Shown in pieces: positions 4,678 through 57,324 of a DNA stretch of 64,000 bases (positions are counted from its first letter, which is position 1; every line of letters begins with the position of its first letter). Source of the DNA: Buchnera aphidicola (Taiwanaphis decaspermi). GTDB lineage: Bacteria; Pseudomonadota; Gammaproteobacteria; Enterobacterales; Enterobacteriaceae. Position numbers and translations under genes: made by a program. The stretch is taken from contig NZ_CP135049.1 of the NCBI RefSeq assembly GCF_039405155.1, positions 389,896-453,895 on the forward strand. The letters run 5' to 3'. Under the pieces are notes generated by a model. The model saw only the letters and a list, made by a program, of their open reading frames with translations. It made no database searches and was not told the DNA's origin.

Positions 4678-6789
4678 TTATTTTATTCGAGATTCTATGA
4701 TATTCTTTGAAATATTATTAGGAGCTTCATTATATTTTGAAAATTCCATAGAATAAGAAGCTCTTCCTTGAGTTTGAGATCTTAAATTAGTAGCATAACC
4801 AAACATTTCAGATAAAGGAACAGAAGCAGTAACTATTCTACCTATATGTAAGGAATTTTCCATTCCTGTAATAATACCTCTTCGACGATTTAAATCACCT
4901 ATTACATCTCCCATATATTCTTCTGGGGTTTCTACTTCAACTTTCATTATTGGTTCTAATATCGTAGGATTGGCTATTTTAAAAGCTTTTTTGAATGCTA
5001 TTGAAGCTGCTAATTTAAAAGCTATTTCAGATGAGTCAACATCATGATATGAACCAAAGTGCAATCTTATACCAATATTAACAACAGGATAACCAGCTAG
5101 CGGACCAGATTTTAATTGATCTTTAAAACCTTTATCAATAGCAGATATGTATTCTCCAGGTATTACACCTCCTTTTATTTCATTTAAAAAAATATAACTT
5201 TCATTATCTGGTTCTATAGGAAACATATCAATTAATACATGACCATATTGTCCTCTTCCTCCAGATTGTTTGATGTGTTTACCTTCAATATCATTAACTC
5301 TATTTCTAATTGTTTCTCTATAAGATACTTGAGGATTACCTATATTTGAATCTACTCCAAATTCTCTTTTCATTCTATCAATAATAATTTCTAAATGTAA
5401 TTCACCCATGCCTGATATAATGGTTTGATTAGATTCTTTATCTGTTGAAACTTTAAATGAAGGATCTTCTTTTGCTAATCTAATTAATGCAATACCCATT
5501 TTTTCTTGATCAACTTTAGTTTTTGGTTCAACAGCAATAGAAATAACTGGTTCTGGAAACTCTATTTTTTCTAAAATTATAGGATTAGAAACACTACATA
5601 ATGTGTCTCCAGTAGTAACGTTTTTTAAACCTATTGCTGCAGCAATATCTCCAGCTCTTACTTCTTTTATTTCTTCTTTTTTATTAGCATGCATTTGTAC
5701 TATTCTACCAATTCTTTCTTTATTGTACTTTATTGGATTTAATATTGTGTCTCCTGATTTAACTATTCCTGAATAAACTCTAAAAAAAGTAAGATTTCCA
5801 ACAAATGGATCTGTAGATATTTTAAAAGCTAAAGCTGAAAAATGTTCTTCATCAGAAGTAGCACGATATACAAAAGATTTACTTTTTAATTTATTATGTC
5901 CTTTTACAGATTGTACATCTATAGGAGATGGTAAATAATCAATGATTGCATCTAATAATGACTGAATTCCTTTGTTTTTGAAAGCTGAACCACAAGTTAC
6001 TAAAACAATTCTATTGTTTAAAGAACTATTTCTTAAAGATAATTTAATTTCTTTTTTTGTTATTTTTTTTCCATTTAAATATTTTTCTGTAAGCACTTCA
6101 TCAAATTCAGCAGCATATTCAATTAATTTTTGATTCCATTTTTTTGAAATTTCTAAAAATTTTTCTGGTATTTTTGTATATGTAAATGTAATACCATTAT
6201 CTTTTTCAGACCATTGAATTGCTTTCATAGTTAATAAATCTATTATTCCTTTAAAATTATTTTCCTTACCCATAGGTATCTGAATTGGTACAGGTATAGA
6301 TCCAAGTTTACTTTTAATTTGTTTTAAAACTTTAAAAAAATTTGCACCCATTCTGTCCATTTTATTCACAAATGCTATTCTAGGAACTTTATATTTATTA
6401 GCTTGTCTCCATACAGTTTCTGATTGAGGTTGAACACCACCAACAGCACAATAAACCATAACTACACCATCTAAAACTCTCATGGATCTTTCTACTTCTA
6501 TAGTAAAATCTACATGACCTGGCGTATCAATAATATTAATTCGATGTGACGGAAATTGTTTAAACATTCCAGACCAAAAAGTTGTAGTAGATGCAGAAGT
6601 AATAGTTATACCTCTTTCTTGTTCTTGAGCCATCCAATCCATAGTGGCAGCACCATCATGAACTTCACCTATTTTATGATTTACTCCAGTATAAAATAAA
6701 ATTCTTTCAGTTGTAGTTGTTTTTCCAGCATCTATATGAGCACTTATACCTATATTTCTATAGTGTATAATAGGTGTTGTACGAGACAT
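4678..6789 (-). CDS. fusA: Elongation factor G
   Basis: EF-G catalyses GTP-dependent translocation and, with RRF, ribosome recycling. The 703-residue product (E. coli 704) has the P-loop AHIDAGKT at residues 17-24, RGITI switch I, DTPGHVDF switch II and NKMD. Domain IV and V landmarks are present, including the GGVIPGEYI loop and the [10 protein letters not shown] turn near the C-terminus. It lies between rpsG and tuf in the str operon on the minus strand. No truncation or frameshift is seen. Confidence 0.99.
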
Positions 6790-44050: not shown

Positions 44051-45235
44051 TTATTTTTTAATTCCTTTAGCTATTAAGATACCTATTATTAACATAAATA
44101 AAATAAATATAGATATTCCATACCAAGAATACCAATACCAAAATACACCACCCAAAGTTCCAAATATACTAGCTCCTAAATAATAAAAAAAAAGATACAA
44201 AGAAGTAGCTTGTCCTTTATATTTTTTTACATGATAACCTACCCAACTGCTAGAAACTGAATGAGCTGAAAAAAATCCTGCTGAAAATATCATTAATCCA
44301 ATGATTATCGTCAATAAGAAATTAAACTGTGTAATGATTAAACCTGTTATCATCAAACATATTGAAAAAACTAGTATTTTAGACCTACCATAAATTTCTG
44401 TCAAAACGCCAGCTTTTGGAGAACTATATATGCCTGTTAAATAAACCATAGAAATAGAACCTAATAAAGCATGATTTATAAATGTTGGTAAAGATATTAA
44501 TCTATATCCAATATAGTTAAATAAAGTAATAAAACAACCCATTAAAATAAATCCTACAAAAAATAATTTAGATAGTATTTTATCCTTGCATTGATTTAAT
44601 CCATTTACAAATAATTTAACAGGATGGATCGATATTGGAAAAAAATTGTTAGAAGGTGGTAATAATATTATAAATATTAATGTAGAAATAAAAGATAATA
44701 TTCCTATTATTAATAATGCTATTTTCCAACAAAAATATATAGACAAAAAACTGGTTATAAACCTTCCAAAAAAACCTCCTAGCGAATTTCCACTAATATA
44801 TAGTCCAATAGCAAACGCTAACAATTTTGGATGTATTTCTTCACTTAAATAACTCATTGCAACAGCAGTTACTCCACTCAACGATAATCCAGTAATAGAT
44901 CTTATTAATATTATATGCTTCCAATTATTCATAAAAGAACACAATATAGTTAATAAAGAAGCTGTTACTAATGAACTAATCATTATTTTTTTCCTACCTA
45001 TATAATCTGATATAGGTCCTGTAAATAACATTCCTAAAGCCATAGTTATTGTTGTAACAGACAATGACAAACTTGCATGTGTTGGAGTTAAATGAAATAT
45101 TTTTGAAAAAATTGGTAATATTGGTTGAACACAATATAAGATAGCAAAAGTAGAAAATCCTGCAGAAAACAAAGCTAACATAATTATGTTGAAATTTTTA
45201 TGATCTTTTTTTATGTATTTTTTTTTGTTTTTCAT
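44051..45235 (-). CDS. MFS transporter, YnfM-like
   Basis: The 394-residue protein has about 12 membrane segments and the MFS signature GPISDYIGRKKIMISSLVTA between segments 2 and 3 (about residues 73-92). It starts after a short lysine-rich stretch, KKDHKNFNIIMLALFSAGFS. The overall look, including IYSSPKAGVLTEIYGRSKIL in the second half, fits the YnfM group of putative amino-acid or sugar efflux carriers, and other Buchnera genomes keep such a gene in about this place as I recall. The substrate is not known; export of products to the host is possible but unproved. Confidence 0.82.
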   Translation of the reverse strand: MKNKKKYIKKDHKNFNIIMLALFSAGFSTFAILYCVQPILPIFSKIFHLTPTHASLSLSVTTITMALGMLFTGPISDYIGRKKIMISSLVTASLLTILCSFMNNWKHIILIRSITGLSLSGVTAVAMSYLSEEIHPKLLAFAIGLYISGNSLGGFFGRFITSFLSIYFCWKIALLIIGILSFISTLIFIILLPPSNNFFPISIHPVKLFVNGLNQCKDKILSKLFFVGFILMGCFITLFNYIGYRLISLPTFINHALLGSISMVYLTGIYSSPKAGVLTEIYGRSKILVFSICLMITGLIITQFNFLLTIIIGLMIFSAGFFSAHSVSSSWVGYHVKKYKGQATSLYLFFYYLGASIFGTLGGVFWYWYSWYGISIFILFMLIIGILIAKGIKK

Positions 45236-46974: not shown

Positions 46975-48234
46975 TTATGATCTTTTCATCATATCAAAAA
47001 ACTCATTATTTGTCTTAGTCATAGATAATTTATTTATCAAGAATTCCATTGCTTCAATTTCGTTCATTGGATGTATTATTTTTCTTAATATCCACATTTT
47101 ATGTAATTCTGAAGATGTTGTTAATAGTTCTTCTTTTCTAGTTCCAGATCTATTATAATCAATAGCTGGAAAAACTCTTTTTTCAGCTATTTTCCTTGAT
47201 AATGGCAATTCCATATTACCTGTTCCTTTAAATTCTTCATATATTACTTCGTCCATTTTTGATCCAGTATCTATTAAAGCAGTGGCTATAATTGTTAAAC
47301 TACCTCCTTCTTCCACATTACGAGCAGCTCCAAAAAATCTTTTAGGTCTATGCAATGCATTAGCGTCAACTCCTCCAGTTAAAACTTTTCCTGAAGCTGG
47401 TACTACTGTATTATAAGCTCTTGCTAATCTTGTTATTGAATCTAATAATATTATTACATCTTTTTTATGTTCTACTAGTCTTTTAGCTTTTTCTATTACC
47501 ATTTCAGAAACTTGTACATGTCTAGAAGAAGGTTCATCAAAAGTAGAAGCTACTACTTCTCCTTTCACTAATCTTTGCATTTCAGTCACTTCTTCAGGTC
47601 TTTCATCTATTAAAAGAACCATTAAAACACATTTAGGATAATTATATGCAATACTTTGAGCTATATTTTGTAATAACATAGTTTTTCCAGCTTTAGGTGG
47701 AGCAACTATTAAACCTCTTTGACCGCAACCTATTGGTGAAGCAAGATCTAAAACTCTTGCTGTTAAATCTTCAGTTGAACCATTACCTCTTTCCATTCTT
47801 AATCTTGAATTTGCATGTAATGGTGTTAAATTTTCGAATAAAATTTTACTACGGGAACTTTCTGGTTTATCATAATTTACTTCATTTACTTTTAGTAAAG
47901 CAAAATATCTTTCTCCGTCTTTAGGAGGTCTTATTTTGCCAGAAATAGTATCTCCTGTACGAAGGTTGAATCTTCTTATTTGACTAGGAGAAACATATAT
48001 ATCATCCGGTCCTGCTAAATAAGAACTATCTGAAGATCTAAGAAAACCAAATCCATCTTGTAATATTTCTAATACTCCATCTCCAAATATGTCTTCACCA
48101 CTTTTTGAGTGTTGTTTTAAAATAGCAAAAATAATGTCTTGTTTTCTCATACGTGCCAAATTTTCTAAACCCATATTTTCGCCAAGATTGATTAATTCAG
48201 AAACCGGAGTGTTTTTAAATTCGGTTAAATTCAT
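46975..48234 (-). CDS. rho: Transcription termination factor Rho
   Basis: Rho is the hexameric RNA translocase that terminates transcription and limits antisense RNA. The 419-residue product equals E. coli in length. It has the N-terminal [20 protein letters not shown], the RNA-binding domain with DGFGFLRSS (residues 60-68), and the P-loop PPKAGKT (179-185). The secondary-site loop and [11 protein letters not shown]alker B-type region follow. It is highly conserved compared with its neighbours. It lies 170 bases after trxA, as in E. coli. Confidence 0.98.
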
Positions 48235-48404: not shown

Positions 48405-48734
48405 TTACAAATTATCATTTAAAAAATCTTTAAGTTTTCTTTTAGAAATAGAGCCAACTTTAGTTGCTAATAACTCTCCATTTTTAAACAAAAGTAAACT
48501 TGGTATACCTCTTATAGAATATTTAGGAGGGGTTAAAGGATTTTCATCTACATTCATTTTGCAAATAATCAAGTTTGTTTTATATTCTTTAGATATTTCA
48601 TCTAATATAGGAGATAATATCTTACATGGCTCACACCATTCTGCCCAAAAATCAACTAAAATGAAATTCTCTGTTGTTGATAAAAATTTTTCAAAATTAT
48701 TATCCGTTATTTTTAATATTTTATTTTCTTTCAT
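48405..48734 (-). CDS. trxA: Thioredoxin 1 with CEPC active site
   Basis: Thioredoxin reduces disulfides in ribonucleotide reductase and other proteins. The 109-residue product (E. coli 109) has the usual fold with VDFWAEWCEPCKILSPIL (residues 27-44) and cis-Pro78 in RGIPSLLLF. The active site is Cys34-Glu-Pro-Cys37; E. coli has Cys-Gly-Pro-Cys, and an acidic residue there is unusual. The gene precedes rho and follows the leu operon, where rep and rhlB lie in E. coli. Confidence 0.96.
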   Translation of the reverse strand: MKENKILKITDNNFEKFLSTTENFILVDFWAEWCEPCKILSPILDEISKEYKTNLIICKMNVDENPLTPPKYSIRGIPSLLLFKNGELLATKVGSISKRKLKDFLNDNL

Positions 48735-48967
48735 TTTATACCTATTTAATATTTAAATTAAATATTATTTAAAAATAATATTTTATTAGAAATAAATTAA
48801 TATAATATTAATTATACTAGAAATTAAAATATAATAGTAGCAAAAAAATAGTTTTATAATAAAAAAATTAACATTAATAATATACAATTATATTATTTAA
48901 TGATATTTATTAATAAATTAAAAAAATAAATTTCTCATGATGAATAAATTTATAAATAAATATTTAT

Positions 48968-49591
48968 TTAAAATAAATTTAAAAAAAACTTTGGTATTTT
49001 AGATTCATATTGTTTAATTTTTTTTTTTATTTTCATCGTTAAATCAATGTTATCTATTCCTTGTATTAACCTTTGTTTTACGGTTTCATCTATATCAAAA
49101 TTATATTTTTGATAAATATTTGTGACACTTTTTTTATGTAAGTTAACAGTAAATTTGATACCTATGTTTTTTTTAACAATATTGAACATGTTATTTATTA
49201 TGTTTTTATTAAAACAAATAGGTAATAAGTTGTTGTTTATACTATTATTATAAAAAATATCAGCAAAACTTGTAGCTATAACAATTAAAAAACCATAATC
49301 TTTAAGAGCCCAAACAGCATGTTCTCTAGAAGATCCACATCCAAAATTATCTCTACATAATAAAATAGTTGAATTTTTATATTCATTTTTATTTAAAATA
49401 AAGTTTTTATTTATTTTTTCACCTTTTTCATCGTGGAATCTCCAATTATGAAATAAATTAAAACCAAAACCATTTTTAGTAACTCTTTGAAGAAATTGTT
49501 TAGGAATTATTACATCTGTATCAACATTAGAAATATCTAATGGTATAACTTTACCTGTATGTTTAACAATTTTATTTTTTATTCTAATCAT
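48968..49591 (-). CDS. leuD: 3-isopropylmalate dehydratase small subunit
   Basis: LeuD with LeuC isomerises 2- to 3-isopropylmalate. The 207-residue swivel domain (E. coli 201) begins [20 protein letters not shown] and has [16 protein letters not shown] and the [21 protein letters not shown] motif of the family, split at residues 80-100. Its start overlaps the leuC stop by 8 bases. It is the last gene of leuABCD. The 233 bases after it up to trxA have no gene and no obvious terminator. Confidence 0.98.
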
Positions 49592-50996
49592 TATTTATAT
49601 CTCTAATGTCATAAAATTTACCTTTTATTGCAGCAATAGCTGCCATAGCTGGGCTTAATAAATGAGTTCTACTGTTTCTACCTTGTCTTCCTTCGAAATT
49701 TCTATTGCTGGTTGAAGCACATCTTTCTTTAGGATTTAATTTGTCTTCATTCATAGCTAAACACATAGAACAACCTGGTAATCTCCATTCAAAACCAGCG
49801 TTTATAAAAATTTTATCTAACCCTTCTTTTTCTGCTTGTTTTTTTACTTTTTTAGAACCAGGTACGACTAAAGCTTTTACACCTTTAGCAACTTTTTGTT
49901 TATTAACAATTTTAGCTGCAGATCTTAAATCTTCAATTCTACCATTAGTACAAGATCCAATAAACACTCTATCAATACTAATGTCTGTTAATTTTATACT
50001 ATGTTTTAATCCCATATATTTTAATGCTTTTTTTGCTGATTGTTTTTCTAAAATATTTGTAAAATATTTAGGATTTGGTATTTTTTTATTTATAGAAACA
50101 ACTTGAGATGGATTTGTACCCCATGTTATTTGAGGAATAATTTCTGTTACGTCTATTTTTATTATTTTGTCAAATTTAGATTTTTTATCAGATTTTAAAG
50201 TTTTCCAATATTTTAACGCATTTTCCCATTGTTCTTTTTTAGGAGAATATTTTTTATTTTTTAGGTAATCGAATGTTTTATTATCTGGTGCGATAATACC
50301 TGATTTAGCACCCATTTCAATAGACATATTGCAAATAGTCATACGTTGTTCCATGGTCATATTATCAATGACGTTACCGCAAAATTCTATTATATAACCA
50401 TTACCTCCTGAAACACCTATTTTTTTTATGATGTATAAAATAATATCTTTAGAACTTACATATTTTTGTAATTTTCCAGATATTATTATCTTCATGTTTT
50501 TAGCTTTTTTTTGTCTCAGTGTTTGAGTAGCAAGAACATGTTCTACTTCTGAAGTTCCTATGCCAAAAGATAAAGATCCAAAAGCTCCATGTGTGGAAGT
50601 ATGAGAATCTCCACAAACTATAGTCATTCCTGGTAAAGTCATTCCATTTTCTGGACCTATGACATGTACTATACCTTGATTATTATTTTTTACATCATAT
50701 AATTTTACATTAAATTCTTTACAATTTTTTTTTAAATGTTGTATTTGAATTCTGGACATTTTGTTAAACTTAGAAATATCATTGCTTGTTGTAGAAACAT
50801 TATGATCCATAGTTGCAAAAGTTTTATTTGGTTGTCTAACTTTTCTTTTTTTTGTTCGTAAACCGTCAAACGCTTGAGGTGAAGTAACTTCATGAATAAG
50901 ATGAAGATCTATATATATAATTGGATCTTTACTGTTTTTATCTGCTACTATATGGGAGTCATATAATTTTTGGTATAAAGTTTTATATATTTTCAT
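49584..50996 (-). CDS. leuC: 3-isopropylmalate dehydratase large subunit
   Basis: LeuC holds the [4Fe-4S] cluster of isopropylmalate isomerase. The 470-residue product (E. coli 466) has [18 protein letters not shown] (residues 30-47), [20 protein letters not shown], the cluster-binding FIGSCTNGR and [10 protein letters not shown] cysteines, and [13 protein letters not shown]. It overlaps leuB by 14 bases and leuD by 8, so translation in the operon is coupled. The cluster depends on the Isc genes at 57758-61924. Confidence 0.98.
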
Positions 50997-52086
50997 AATT
51001 TCCTTTCAAAATTAAATTAGCTATAATATCACCCATTTTTTTTGTTGTAATATATTTTTTACCATCAGATATATCAAATGTTCTATATCCTTTTAATAAA
51101 ACCTTGTTTACAGAGTTATTTATTATTTTAGATATATTTTTTAAATTAAAACTATGTTCTAATAACATAGATAAAGACAAAATTTGAGCTATAGGATTAG
51201 CTATATTTTTATTAGCTATATCAGGAGCAGATCCACCCGCAGGTTCGAAAATTCCAAAATTATTTTCATTTAAACTAGCAGAAGGAAGTATTCCTATAGA
51301 ACCAGATATTGCTGCACATTCATCAGAAATAATATCTCCAAATAAATTTGAACATAAGATAACATCAAAATCATATGGTTTATTTATTATTTGCATCACA
51401 GCATTATCGATATATAAATGTGAAACTTTTACTTTTGGATAAATTTTAGATATTTTATCTACTGTTTGCCTCCACAAAATAGAACTTTCTAAAACATTAG
51501 CTTTATCAACGGAAACAAGTTTTCTATTTCTTTTCATGGCTAACTTAAAAGCAATATGTGATATTCTTGTTATTTCTTTTTCAGAATATATTTCTGTATC
51601 AAAAGAATATTTTGATTCTTTGTTTTTTTTTGTACCTTTAGGAGAACCAAAATATATTCCTCCAATTAATTCTCGAACACATAAAATATCAAAACCTTTA
51701 GAAGATATATTTTTTTTTAAAGGAGATAATTTATATAATTTTCTATGTAATTTAGATGGTCTTAAATTTATAAACAAATTAAAATGTTTTCTTATTTTTA
51801 ATAAAGCTCCTGTTTCAGGTTGTAAATTTATAGGTAATTTTTTCCATTTTTCACCTCCTACAGATCCTAGTAAAATAGCGTTTGATTTTGTACATCCTGA
51901 TATAGTTTCATTAGGTAATGGAACACCATGTTTATCAATGGCTACACCTCCAATATCATATTTTTTTGTAATTATGTTTGTTTTAAATCTTTTATTAATA
52001 ACTTCTATAATTTTTAAGGCTTCTTTCATAACCTCAGGTCCTATTCCATCACCTGGTAAAATAGCTATCTTGTATTTTTTTTTCAT
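50983..52086 (-). CDS. leuB: 3-isopropylmalate dehydrogenase
   Basis: LeuB oxidises 3-isopropylmalate with NAD+ and decarboxylates it. The 367-residue product (E. coli 363) starts [20 protein letters not shown] and has [17 protein letters not shown], the [10 protein letters not shown] segment, DKANVLESS with the catalytic lysine, and [20 protein letters not shown]. It lies 34 bases after leuA and overlaps leuC. No key residue is missing. Confidence 0.98.
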
Positions 52087-52120
52087 TAATATATTTTCTT
52101 GAAATAATTGATTATTTGAA

Positions 52121-53665
52121 TTAAAAAATATTTTTTTTGAGATTCATGTAAATATCATTTAAATTCCATATATTATTTAAAACATCAATCAAAGAAAGAA
52201 TGTAAGATTCTAAATAGTTTTTAGATATTCCTGTTCCATAAAAAGTTCTATTTTTATATTTTACGGAAATATTAACTCTAATTGATAAATTTTCTATTTT
52301 TTCTGTTGTAAAAGATTCATAATTTAATAAAACTATTTTTAACATAGTTGTTTTACTAAAAAGTTTACAAAGAACATTTATAATATTTTTTTTAGTTGTT
52401 ATTTTAATATTTTTTATTTTATCTCCACATAATAATTTTATTTTTAATTTTGTATAATCACGTAGTTTATAATTAACACTATATTTTTTTAGTAAAAAAA
52501 AATTTTTATATTCTTTTTCATTTTTAAAGGCTAAATATTCTAAATCATAATCAAATACTTTTCCTTTTTTATCTGCAAAATTAATAAATTTATTATATAA
52601 TTTATTAAGATCATAATCTTTTTCTTTATATCCTAATTCTAACATTTTTTGTTTTATTGCAGATCTACCTGATCTTGAAGTTAAATTTAATTTTGTTTTT
52701 TTAAATCCTATAATTGTTGGATTAAATATTTCATAATTATTCCTATTTTTTAACATACCGTCTTGATGTATTCCAGAAGAATGTGAAAAAGCATTGCTTC
52801 CTATAACAGCTTTGTTTCTAGGTATAGGAACATGACATATTTTACTAACCAATTTACTGTTTTTATAAATATTTTTAATGTTTATATCTGTATATGCATT
52901 TAGCAAATTACCATGTAATTTGATAGCCATTATTATTTCTTCTAGCGCTGTATTACCAGCTCTCTCACCTAAACCGTTGGTTGTTCCTTCTACCTGAGAA
53001 GCTCCTTCTTTTATAGCAGATATTGAATTTCCAGAAGCCATACCTAAATCGTTATGACAATGTACTGAAATATTAGCTTTATCTATATTAGGAACATTAT
53101 TATATAAATATTTTATTATTTTTCCAAATTCATAAGGAACAGTAAAACCAACTGTATCCGGGATATTAATTGTATTAGCACCAGCTTCAATTACTTTTTC
53201 AACTATTTTACATAAATTATTAATATTAGTACGTCCAGCATCTTCACATGAAAATTGCACATCATTAGTATATTTTTTAGCTTTTTTTACATAAAAAACA
53301 GACATATCTATTATTTCTTGAAATCTTTTTTTAAGTTTTGATTTTATGTGTATGTCAGATGTAGCTAAAAATATATGTAATCTGAAATTTTTAGCTTTTA
53401 ACATAGATTCTGCAGCTACTTCTATATCATTATCTACACAACGAGCTAAACTACAGATAGTGCTATTTGTTATATTATTTGATATAATTTGAGAAGATTT
53501 AAAATCTTCTGGAGAAGATATTGGAAAACCAACTTCTATAATATCTACCCCCATATTTTCTAAAGATAAAGCTATCTTCAACTTTTTTTTTGCTGTCAAA
53601 CTGTATTTTAATGCTTGTTCACCATCTCTCAACGTGGTATCTAAAATAATAATTTTTCTTTTCAT
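52121..53665 (-). CDS. leuA: 2-isopropylmalate synthase
   Basis: LeuA condenses acetyl-CoA with 2-ketoisovalerate, the committed leucine step. I start it at the ATG ending at 53665 (AGGA nine bases upstream); it reads [20 protein letters not shown] and gives 514 residues (E. coli 523), while the frame is open 21 codons further back. The catalytic barrel has [13 protein letters not shown] and [14 protein letters not shown]. The C-terminal regulatory domain that binds leucine in other bacteria is present (about residues 390-510). It heads leuABCD. Confidence 0.97.
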
Positions 53666-53745
53666 AAAATTTTTTCCTAATAATTTCATTATTGTTTGTA
53701 GAAAAATATTTATATTAAAAAATAACAATTTTGTGATATATAATC

Positions 53746-53770
53746 ATAAATATTCTTTTTGAATATTTAT
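53746..53770 (-). promoter_or_regulatory. Perfect 10-bp inverted repeat in the leuA leader
   Basis: ATAAATATTC (53746-53755) and GAATATTTAT (53761-53770) are exact complements with a 5-base T loop, placed about 80 bases before the leuA ATG on the minus-strand transcript. All pairs but one in each arm are A-T, so the hairpin is weak. It may be an mRNA leader structure or a dyad binding site, and chance is possible. Confidence 0.35.
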
Positions 53771-53906
53771 TTAATAAAAATATTTAAAACGAATTTTTAA
53801 ATTTTTTATTTAAATATTTAATAACCTTATATTTTGTGCATAAAAATAATTTAATTTTAAATAAAATTAAAATTTAAAAAAAATATTTTTAAATTTATTC
53901 AAATTA

Positions 53907-53947
53907 TTTAAAATGGTGCATATAATAAATTACAGCCCCATTTTAAA
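53907..53947 (-). terminator. Possible terminator hairpin after ilvC
   Basis: TTTAAAATGG (53907-53916) pairs with CCATTTTAAA (53938-53947), ten pairs, around a 21-base loop. It lies about 50 bases downstream of the ilvC stop. On the minus strand the stem is followed by AATAATTT, a weak T stretch, so it could terminate ilvDC transcription before the leu operon. The long loop lowers confidence. Confidence 0.4.
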
Positions 53948-53996
53948 ATAACTATTTTAAATAATTAATTTTTTAGAAATACACCTTAATAAAATT

Positions 53997-55460
53997 TTAT
54001 ATATTTTTCATTTTAGTCATATATTTTCTTAATTTTAAACCAACTTTTTCTATTTTATGATTATCTATAAAATTTTGTAACTTTAATAATTTTTTGTTAT
54101 CTATATAATATGATTTTATTTCATTACCAATATCGTTTTTATTAAGTTTATGTAAAATTTTTTTAAATATTTTTAAAGCTGGTTTTGTAAACAAATAACT
54201 TCCATATTCTGCAGTATCAGAGATTATAACATTCATTTCGTGTAATCTTTTACGTGCAATAGTATTTGCTATTAAAGGTAGTTCATGTAGAGACTCATAA
54301 TAAGCTGATTCGGGCATTATTCCTGTAGATAACATAGTTTCAAAAGCTAATTCAATACCTGCTTTAACAATAGATATCATTAAAACACCTTTCTTAAAAA
54401 AATCTTCCTTAAATATTGATCCTGTATAATTTTTTGATTTCTCAAAATCTGTATTTTTAATTTCTTTCCTCCATTTTAGTAATTTAATATCATTATTTTT
54501 CCAGTCTTGAATCATTTTTTTAGAAAAATCACCCGAAATAATATTATCCATATGTTTTTGAAATAAATATTTCATATTTTTTTTAATTATTTCTGATATT
54601 TGATGTACTCTATATTTAGCATATGGGGATAATCTATTTAACATTAATTTTATACCTCCGTGTTTTAAAGATTCTGTTATTATTTCCCAACCATATTGTA
54701 TAAAACTTGCTGAATAACATTTGTCAAAATTTTGAGATACTAAAAAGTCATAACAAAATAATGAACCTGCTTGAAGTAAACCACATAATATTGTTTGTTC
54801 TCCCATTAAATCTGATTTAACTTCAGCAACAAATGAAGATTCTAAAACACCAGCTTTATCACTACCTATAGCCATTGCCCAAGATTTAGCTATTTCTATA
54901 CCATTTTTATTAATATTATTTTCAGGATGAACAGCTATTAAAGCAGGTACTCCAAAACCTCTTTTATATTCTTCTCTTACTTCTGATCCAGGACATTTTG
55001 GAGCAACCATTATTACTGTAATATCAGATCTAATAACCTCTCCCATTTCGACAATATTAAAACCATGAGAATAACCTAATATTGAATATTTTTTCATTAA
55101 AGGTTGTATTTTTTTTATTACTATTGAATGTTGTTTATCTGGAGTCAAATTGATAACTAAATCTGCTGTTGGTATTAATTTTTTATATGTGTTTACAACA
55201 AATTTGTTTTTTATTGCATTTTTGTATGAATTAGTTTTTTTTAAAATAGATTTTTTTCTTAAAGCATAAGACACATTTAGTCCAGAATCCCTCATATTTA
55301 AACCTTGATTTAGACCTTGTGATCCACATCCTACTATTACTATTTTTTTATTTATAAGAAAATTCTTACTTTGTAAAAATTCTTTTTTTAATACAAAACG
55401 ACATTTTTTTAATTGAGATATTTTTTTTCTAAAATTTAATTTATTAAAATAATTAGACAT
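53997..55460 (-). CDS. ilvC: Ketol-acid reductoisomerase
   Basis: IlvC is the second enzyme of valine and isoleucine synthesis. The 487-residue product (E. coli 491) is the long class II form with a duplicated C-terminal domain. It has [18 protein letters not shown] near residues 44-61 for [14 protein letters not shown], the catalytic [17 protein letters not shown], and [20 protein letters not shown]. It lies 10 bases after ilvD on the same strand and upstream of the leu operon. ilvA, ilvE and the acetolactate synthase are not in this window. Confidence 0.98.
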
Positions 55461-55470
55461 TATTTTCCTC

Positions 55471-57324
55471 TTAATATTTTTTATTTAATATATTTTTATC
55501 TCTAACAGCTCCTTTACTAGAACTAGTAACAAAAAAAGAATATGCTTTCAATGCATCAGATATATTTCTTTTTCTGTTTGCAGGTGTAAAAGATTTATTT
55601 TTTCTTTTATTTTCTTCATTTATTCTTTTAATAATTTCTGATTTACAAACACATAATTTAATTGTACGTTTAGGTATATTTAACTTAATGATGTCACCGT
55701 TTTTTACAATCGATATCAATCCTTTATTAGCTGCTTCAGGAGAAATATGTCCTATAGAAAGACCAGATGTTCCTCCAGAAAATCTTCCGTCTGTTATCAA
55801 AGCACAATATTTGTCTAACCCCATTGATTTTAAATAAGTTGTAGGATATAACATTTCCTGCATACCTGGTCCACCTTTAGGACCTTCGTACCTAATAACT
55901 ACTACATCACCTTTTAAAACACCACTATTTAAAATTGCATATACTGCATCTTCTTGGCTTTCATAAACTTTTGCAGGTCCAGAAAAAGTTAACATTTTTT
56001 TATTAACTCCAGCTGTTTTCACAACACAACCTTCATTAGCCAAATTACCTTTTAATATAGCTAATCCTCCATCTTTACTATATGCATATTTATAAGATCT
56101 TATACAACCATTTTTTCTATCCAAATCTAATTTTTTCCATCTATATGATTGAGAAAAAGGTTGTGTAGTTCTAACTCCTAAAGGACCAGCAAGAAACATT
56201 TTTTTTACTTTTTTATTTTTAGAAATAATTATGTCATATTTTTTTAATGTTTTTTTAATTGATTTTCCTAATATATTATTAGATTCATGAAGTAAATTTA
56301 ATCTATTTAATTCACCTAATATTCCCATAACTCCTCCTGCTTTATGTACATCCTCTATATGATATTTTTTTGAACTAGGAGATACTTTGCATAAATGAGG
56401 TACTTTTCTGGATATTTTATCTATATCAAAAATAGAAAAATCTATTTTACCTTCTTGAGCTGCTGCTAATAGATGTAATATAGTATTACTTGAACCTCCC
56501 ATAGATACATCCAACATCATTGCATTAATGAAAGATTTTCTATTAGCTATATTTCTTGGCAAAAAATTAATATTATTGTTTTTGTAATATTCTTGAGTTA
56601 TCTTTACAATAATTTTGCCAGATTTTTTAAACAACTTTTTTCTATCGGTATGAGTAGCTAATATTGTTCCATTACCTGGTAATGCTAATCCTAAAACTTC
56701 CATTAAACAATTCATGGAATTAGCAGTAAACATACCAGCACAAGAACCACATGTAGGACAAGATAGTTTTTCAATAACATTACTTTGAGTTTTTTTATTT
56801 TTTTTTACCCCTTCTATTATAGCATTTACTAAATCTAATTTAATAACTTTGTTATTTTTATCAATTATTTTACCAGATTCCATAGGTCCACCAGAAACAA
56901 ATACTGATGGTATATTTAACCTTAATGATGCCATTAACATTCCCGGGGTTATTTTGTCACAATTAGATATACATACCATTGCATCAACACAATGTGCATT
57001 TATTACATATTCTACTGAATCAGCAATTATATCTCTAGAAGGTAATGAATATAACATCCCATCATGTCCCATAGCAATTCCATCGTCAATTGCTATAGTG
57101 TTAAATTCTTTTGCAACACCACCGTTTTTTTTTATTTCTTTAGCTACAATATTTCCAATATTTTTTAAATGAATATGACCTGGTACAAATTCTGAAAAAG
57201 AATTTACTATTGCTATTATAGGTTTTTTGAAATCATCATCATTCATTCCTGTTGCTCTCCACAAAGAACGAGCACCAGTCATGTTCTTACCATGTGTTGT
57301 TTTTGAAGAACGATATTTAATCAT
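55471..57324 (-). CDS. ilvD: Dihydroxy-acid dehydratase
   Basis: IlvD makes the branched 2-keto acids from dihydroxy acids; 2-ketoisovalerate is also the LeuA substrate. The 617-residue Fe-S enzyme (E. coli 616) has [20 protein letters not shown] (about residues 120-139), the [20 protein letters not shown] cysteine region, and [15 protein letters not shown] near the C-terminus. It precedes ilvC by 10 bases, so the two are one transcript. A 215-base gap separates it from tRNA-Trp. Confidence 0.98.

Follow-up and report, generated by a model that had tools for sequence, protein, structure and literature searches.

Chromosomal leuABCD between ilvC and trxA in the Buchnera of Taiwanaphis decaspermi, in an interval apparently reused in the Formosaphis genus

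How did a complete set of leucine genes come to lie on the chromosome of an aphid symbiont whose only compared congener carries them on a plasmid? We address this question for the leuABCD cluster of Buchnera aphidicola (Taiwanaphis decaspermi), found in a 64,000-nt stretch of its chromosome (positions 389,896 to 453,895 of NZ_CP135049.1; hereinafter designated the window, whose numbering is used below unless a contig is named). We consider it probable that the Taiwanaphis lineage moved a plasmid-borne leuABCD into the ilvC-rep-trxA interval of its chromosome, and that the same took place independently in the Formosaphis genus (hereinafter designated g91).

An intact leucine cluster on the chromosome

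The cluster occupies positions 48968-53665 on the minus strand, with all four genes present, open and adjacent: leuA (2-isopropylmalate synthase, 52121-53665, 514 aa from ATG), leuB (3-isopropylmalate dehydrogenase, 50983-52086, 367 aa), leuC (3-isopropylmalate dehydratase large subunit, 49584-50996, 470 aa) and leuD (3-isopropylmalate dehydratase small subunit, 48968-49591, 207 aa). Each gene clears a curated NCBIfam cut-off for its function, with 485 bits for leuB (cut-off 353), 815 for leuC (560), 235 for leuD (116) and 621 for leuA under TIGR00973 (599); a second leuA model, NF002084, gives 731 bits, short of its cut-off of 748. A longer program-called frame of leuA begins at TTG 53728. 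The genes are tightly packed, with a gap of 34 nt between leuA and leuB and overlaps of 14 nt for leuB/leuC and 8 nt for leuC/leuD. On the two sides lie trxA (thioredoxin, 48405-48734, minus strand) downstream and ilvC (ketol-acid reductoisomerase, 53997-55460, minus strand) upstream, both identified by open reading frame (ORF) and NCBIfam match like the leu genes, so that the neighbors on either side are ordinary genes of the chromosome, in conserved order. The preliminary description of this locus as a complete, intact and chromosomal leuABCD between trxA and ilvC is thereby borne out. The cluster should still serve as a leucine operon, with a copy number that is now that of the chromosome, and we infer that it is both expressed and functional there.

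The whole assembly (456,983 bases in two contigs, the chromosome accounting for 453,895) contains a single HMGL-like (leuA) match and no second leu cluster, a point that the preliminary description had asked to be checked. The IncFII-type RepA model NF040977, which among 14 named controls is positive only in E. coli and is also positive in the congener (genome G001), has no match anywhere in the assembly; the cluster thus has no repA beside it, as had been noted, and does not show the repA-beside-leu arrangement of a leucine plasmid. The further question of a plasmid in the same strain has a mixed answer: the assembly holds none with leu or repA, an unassembled one being possible, whereas a 3.1-kb trpEG plasmid does survive as the second contig (L083, 3,088 bp; trpE, trpG and a second trpG piece).

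The trxA-ilvC interval in relatives and the fate of rep

Comparison of the trxA-ilvC interval across Buchnera places the leucine genes at the same location in g91, where ilvC, rep, leuABCD and trxA follow one another in one direction in all four genomes compared (G091, which is Formosaphis, together with G203, G277 and G341). The interval is therefore not particular to the Taiwanaphis strain. Outside g91, and with the Taiwanaphis window excepted, 20 intervals were compared, all of them free of leu; rep lies inside 15 and, at the threshold applied, was not matched in the other five (L228, L232, L233, L234 and L235), although the Anoecia interval among these (L234) still has recognizable rep fragments, which suggests that the Rep helicase has been lost repeatedly in Buchnera. 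Rep was identified from the G001 protein, which among NCBIfam models scores best against TIGR01074 (DNA helicase Rep), at 789 bits, below the cut-off of 951. The G001 chromosome itself, from a Neophyllaphis-like symbiont, reads trxA-rep-ilvC with no leu between.

In the Taiwanaphis assembly no intact rep was found, the sole Rep helicase match being a weak one (E 9.5e-5, 17 bits) in a 1124-aa frame elsewhere. The earlier remark that rep is not at this position is thus true, but since rep is present in most leu-free intervals and stands beside leuABCD in g91, its absence was probably a separate loss: most likely, the Taiwanaphis interval holds leu as that of g91 does and differs by the later or earlier disappearance of rep. 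It follows that trxA and ilvC are correctly named as the present flanks of the cluster, whereas the original junction could have been rep-trxA or ilvC-rep.

A remnant of rep at either junction was considered and rejected. With 100 mononucleotide shuffles per junction and seven Rep queries, a tblastn-type search gave 25.8 bits for the G001 query in the ilvC-leuA spacer against 25.0 for the best shuffle, and the Baizongia Rep query, over an overlapping stretch of Rep, scored above 95 of 100 shuffles in the same spacer. When shuffles preserving dinucleotides were used instead, 8 of 200 equalled the G001 query and 9 of 200 the summed score of 19 queries, while a profile of 19 Rep proteins was matched or exceeded by 294 of 500 shuffles in the ilvC-leuA spacer and by 488 of 500 in the leuD-trxA spacer. 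The same profile beats 100 of 100 shuffles in the Anoecia interval, which served as the positive control. RepA and YqhA queries do not make either junction stand out from shuffles, and a remnant search over the whole window returned low-complexity noise only.

Ancestry of the two clusters and the probable plasmid source

The chromosomal proteins place the two bearers of this arrangement apart. In a tree of 11 proteins from 20 genomes (4,947 columns; G341, Cinara G011, Chaitophorus and G222 were left out as incomplete), g91 groups with Fordini and Aphidinae (100/99), apart from Taiwanaphis. Forcing Taiwanaphis beside g91 costs 67.7 log-likelihood units and is rejected by the approximately unbiased (AU) test (p 0.00288); after Dayhoff recoding, that pairing appears in 0 of 1000 bootstraps, compared with 996 of 1000 for g91 with Fordini and Aphidinae. 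The chromosomal proteins thus give no common ancestry of Taiwanaphis and g91 to the exclusion of plasmid bearers, and because they reject such a clade, we read the data as two independent integrations into one interval. When leu locations are mapped on this tree, the five chromosomal sites require six changes; if the plasmid is taken as the background state, the rep/trxA site has two origins.

A tree of the leucine proteins themselves (25 rows, 1,523 columns) groups Taiwanaphis with G001 (91/98), and G001 has the plasmid form. Its leucine plasmid (L116, 6,037 bp) carries leuABCD and repA; over 98% of its length it matches the plasmid of Neophyllaphis podocarpi, CP135040, at 94% identity. The 21 leucine plasmids compared fall into two gene orders. 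G001 has an unbroken leuABCD with repA between leuD and leuA, as do three members of genus g73, two of which are Aphidinae, and also Nipponaphis, there with a wide leuA-leuB gap. The remaining 16 are ordered leuBCD-leuA and place repA between leuA and leuB. Cinara confinis is the exception among them: its 8,214-bp plasmid (L168) carries trpEG and leuBCDA together, with trpEG in that place and no repA match. To judge by gene order, the tight ABCD arrangement of Taiwanaphis fits the first type; in the G001 plasmid leuA and leuB likewise lie close together, in fact overlapping. The L116 replicon differs in having repA and, in its repA-leuA spacer (about 5930-6037 and 1-11 of L116, across the contig ends), a very long near-perfect inverted repeat that folds as a very long hairpin, similar to the conserved stem-loop that PMC3229713 describes upstream of leuABCD; nothing of the kind is present in the Taiwanaphis spacer.

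We infer a movement from plasmid to chromosome by RecA-independent recombination. The source would have been an ABCD-ordered leucine plasmid like that of the Neophyllaphis Buchnera, opened between leuD and leuA with loss of its replication part. The leuABCD block would then have entered the ilvC-rep-trxA interval, oriented like its neighbors, and kept neither repA nor the long inverted repeat upstream of leuA. Joining to the chromosome would have proceeded without RecA; a recA search is positive in 14 of 14 controls and has no match in the Taiwanaphis assembly. The rep gene, missing or broken in several Buchnera, would have gone before or after this step, leaving ilvD-ilvC-leuABCD-trxA-rho, and the Formosaphis genus would have used the interval on its own account.

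Several results weigh against this reading. No plasmid or rep remnant is present at the site, and neither the direction of movement nor the original junction can be read there. The Taiwanaphis genome was assembled from short reads with MEGAHIT/NOVOPlasty (PMC11193766), so a leu plasmid may have gone unassembled. The leucine proteins alone do not reject Taiwanaphis with g91 (AU p 0.114), and their tree weakens on recoding, with Taiwanaphis and G001 together in 412 of 1000 bootstraps (Taiwanaphis with g91 in 3 of 1000). The chromosomal tree, in turn, puts Taiwanaphis with Greenidea, G120 and the Chaitophorinae-like G127 at 97/97 and recovers Taiwanaphis with G001 in only 15 of 1000 recoded bootstraps, so the sister relation of these two rests on the genus grouping and the leu tree. 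Several tree rows, including Taiwanaphis, have an unusual amino-acid composition. The two trees conflict over the kin of Taiwanaphis; the conflict may be compositional, with Taiwanaphis drawn to G120, G127 and Greenidea perhaps through shared composition.

Recurrence of the interval and competing explanations

If the cluster moved twice, as we favor, the recurrence of one interval may simply be coincidence, two independent integrations having fallen on the same one of some 400-500 gene boundaries, and to this we lean by a modest degree. By rough arithmetic, about seven integrations (six on the chromosomal tree and one in Sarucallis, a genome that the tree lacks) and the 411 genes listed for this Buchnera (PMC11193766) give about 5% for some shared boundary, and about double that if either spacer beside rep counts, a range of 5-10%; a few per cent is nevertheless low, though not negligible, and the shared orientation halves the figure. 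Coincidence is compatible with two movements from plasmid to chromosome, the one point of difference being the reason for the recurrence of the site.

The recurrence also suggests that ilvC-rep-trxA is a hot spot for leu genes. It could be a preferred landing site in a stronger sense, with two lineages converging on a leuABCD that follows ilvDC in the same direction, and the loss of rep in Taiwanaphis bringing the two sets together and offsetting the lost plasmid copies, but we hold this to be doubtful. If true, ilvDC-leuABCD would form one block for the shared branched-chain pathway. In any event, the case lets one ask whether loss of plasmid copies is offset by placement beside ilvDC.

A slightly less probable alternative, and in our view an unlikely one, is a single ancestral integration beside trxA, inherited by Taiwanaphis and g91 alike, with plasmid return or re-integration in the lineages between. 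Interval, orientation and ABCD order are the same in both, and the leucine proteins tolerate the clade. The chromosomal proteins do not, however; G001 has the plasmid together with trxA-rep-ilvC, the leuA-leuB gap is 472 nt in Formosaphis against 34 nt in Taiwanaphis, and many reversals would be needed.

Very improbable is an artefact in which a plasmid leu cluster was mis-joined into the chromosome. The use of short reads leaves room for it, and the preliminary description had pointed to the two junction spacers, ilvC-leuA (53666-53996, 331 bp, minus strand) and leuD-trxA (48735-48967, 233 bp, minus strand), as places where a join would alter the picture. Among the places scored in the assembly (40 of 169 candidates for ilvC-leuA and 40 of 144 for leuD-trxA), neither spacer has a long near-identical second copy, the best-scoring second places being 68% and 73% identical and closer ones extending only over short stretches (e.g., 96% over 23 nt); a repeat-mediated mis-join thus has no support. 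Moreover, the assembly lacks repA, which the congener's plasmid has, and four other genomes also have leu in this interval. Least probable of all is an ancestral chromosomal operon that never was on a plasmid: ABCD is the order of free-living relatives, but their leu genes are located elsewhere, beside ilvIH, and each of the 20 trxA-ilvC intervals compared outside g91 is free of leu.

Known leucine clusters and further features of the region

Chromosomal leu clusters of Buchnera were already known. PMC3229713 (2011) gave them as occurring only in Pemphiginae and Chaitophorinae, where Sabater-Munoz et al. 2004, as cited there, read the chromosomal cluster as a back-transfer from the plasmid. 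The present case likewise has leu on the chromosome, but outside these two subfamilies, which the preliminary description had named: Taiwanaphis decaspermi belongs to Taiwanaphidinae, counted among the newly covered subfamilies in PMC11193766, its congener keeps the plasmid, and rep is gone from the interval. For Fordini, Calaphidinae/Phyllaphidinae and Anoecia, PMC11188193 describes leu rearrangements with gene orders ADCB, DCBA and ABCD; the same four genes move between plasmid and chromosome, and the sites differ (ruvX/yggS, tsaB near minD, pgl/mfd). New to us are the subfamily, the two states within one genus and the apparent reuse of the interval, while the rep-trxA site may, we suspect, already be in print for Pemphigini; PMC11193766, which covers the Taiwanaphis Buchnera, nowhere uses the term leucine. 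Gene order in Buchnera is described as extremely stable (PMC11188193), and yet the leu genes go on changing places between plasmid and chromosome. G001 and Taiwanaphis display, in one genus, plasmid with empty site and chromosome with filled site, and one interval has apparently served two times, in the present case in a genome that has no recA match.

The g91 clusters share interval, gene order and direction with that of Taiwanaphis and differ in the retained rep; Formosaphis itself also has the wider leuA-leuB gap and keeps an 8.8-kb plasmid. The latter (L263, contig 2 of G091, 8,788 bp) carries repA, yqhA and trpEG with no leu match; from its gene content, it may be read as a leucine-plasmid backbone now carrying tryptophan genes.

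Chromosomal leu occupies at least five other sites, with flanks named for one locus each: ruvX/yggS in Melaphis, truA/secA in G120, gnd/dcd in G127, pgl/mfd in Anoecia, and in Sarucallis tsaB on one side with minD as second neighbor on the other. By ORF pattern only, a Melaphis-like arrangement is seen on both flanks in Baizongia and on the leuA side in Schlechtendalia and two more genomes of g44, a G120-like one in two more g120 genomes, and a G127-like one in Chaitophorus viminalis and three more g127 genomes. G127 is called Chaitophorinae-like from this resemblance of its leu flanks to those of C. viminalis, which its leucine proteins join at 100/100. Chromosomal leuABCD is also present at other places in two small genomes, G088 (L165) and G124 (L166), from which no inference is drawn.

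Around the Taiwanaphis cluster, ilvD (dihydroxy-acid dehydratase, 55471-57324, minus strand) lies 10 nt from ilvC and rho (46975-48234, minus strand) is the next gene past trxA, both identified by ORF and NCBIfam. As ilvD, ilvC, leuABCD, trxA and rho all run in one direction, their joint transcription is possible on sequence grounds. Plasmid leuABCD of the pea aphid Buchnera yields a polycistronic mRNA by reverse transcription PCR (PMC3229713). Scans of the window returned 87 promoter-like sites against 93.9 expected and one terminator-like site (plus strand, inside rho) against 1.5 expected, and with no excess over chance we make no claim on expression from them. A hairpin in the ilvC-leuA spacer is weak and not above shuffles (z -1.05). 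The repeat scan of the interval gave AT-rich imperfect pairs only (among the 20 direct families listed of 23, and the 25 inverted pairs listed of 203), and inverted pairs linking the two spacers, one of 28 nt at 86% and others, were discounted as AT-rich sequence.

On the trpEG contig (L083, 2200-3088), the second trpG piece corresponds to residues 119-186 and is identical to the full trpG, reflecting either a partial duplication or an assembly join. A 394-aa transporter frame at 44051-45235 is provisionally labelled yajR, and an Rfam scan identified three tRNAs and one sub-threshold match lying over a tRNA.

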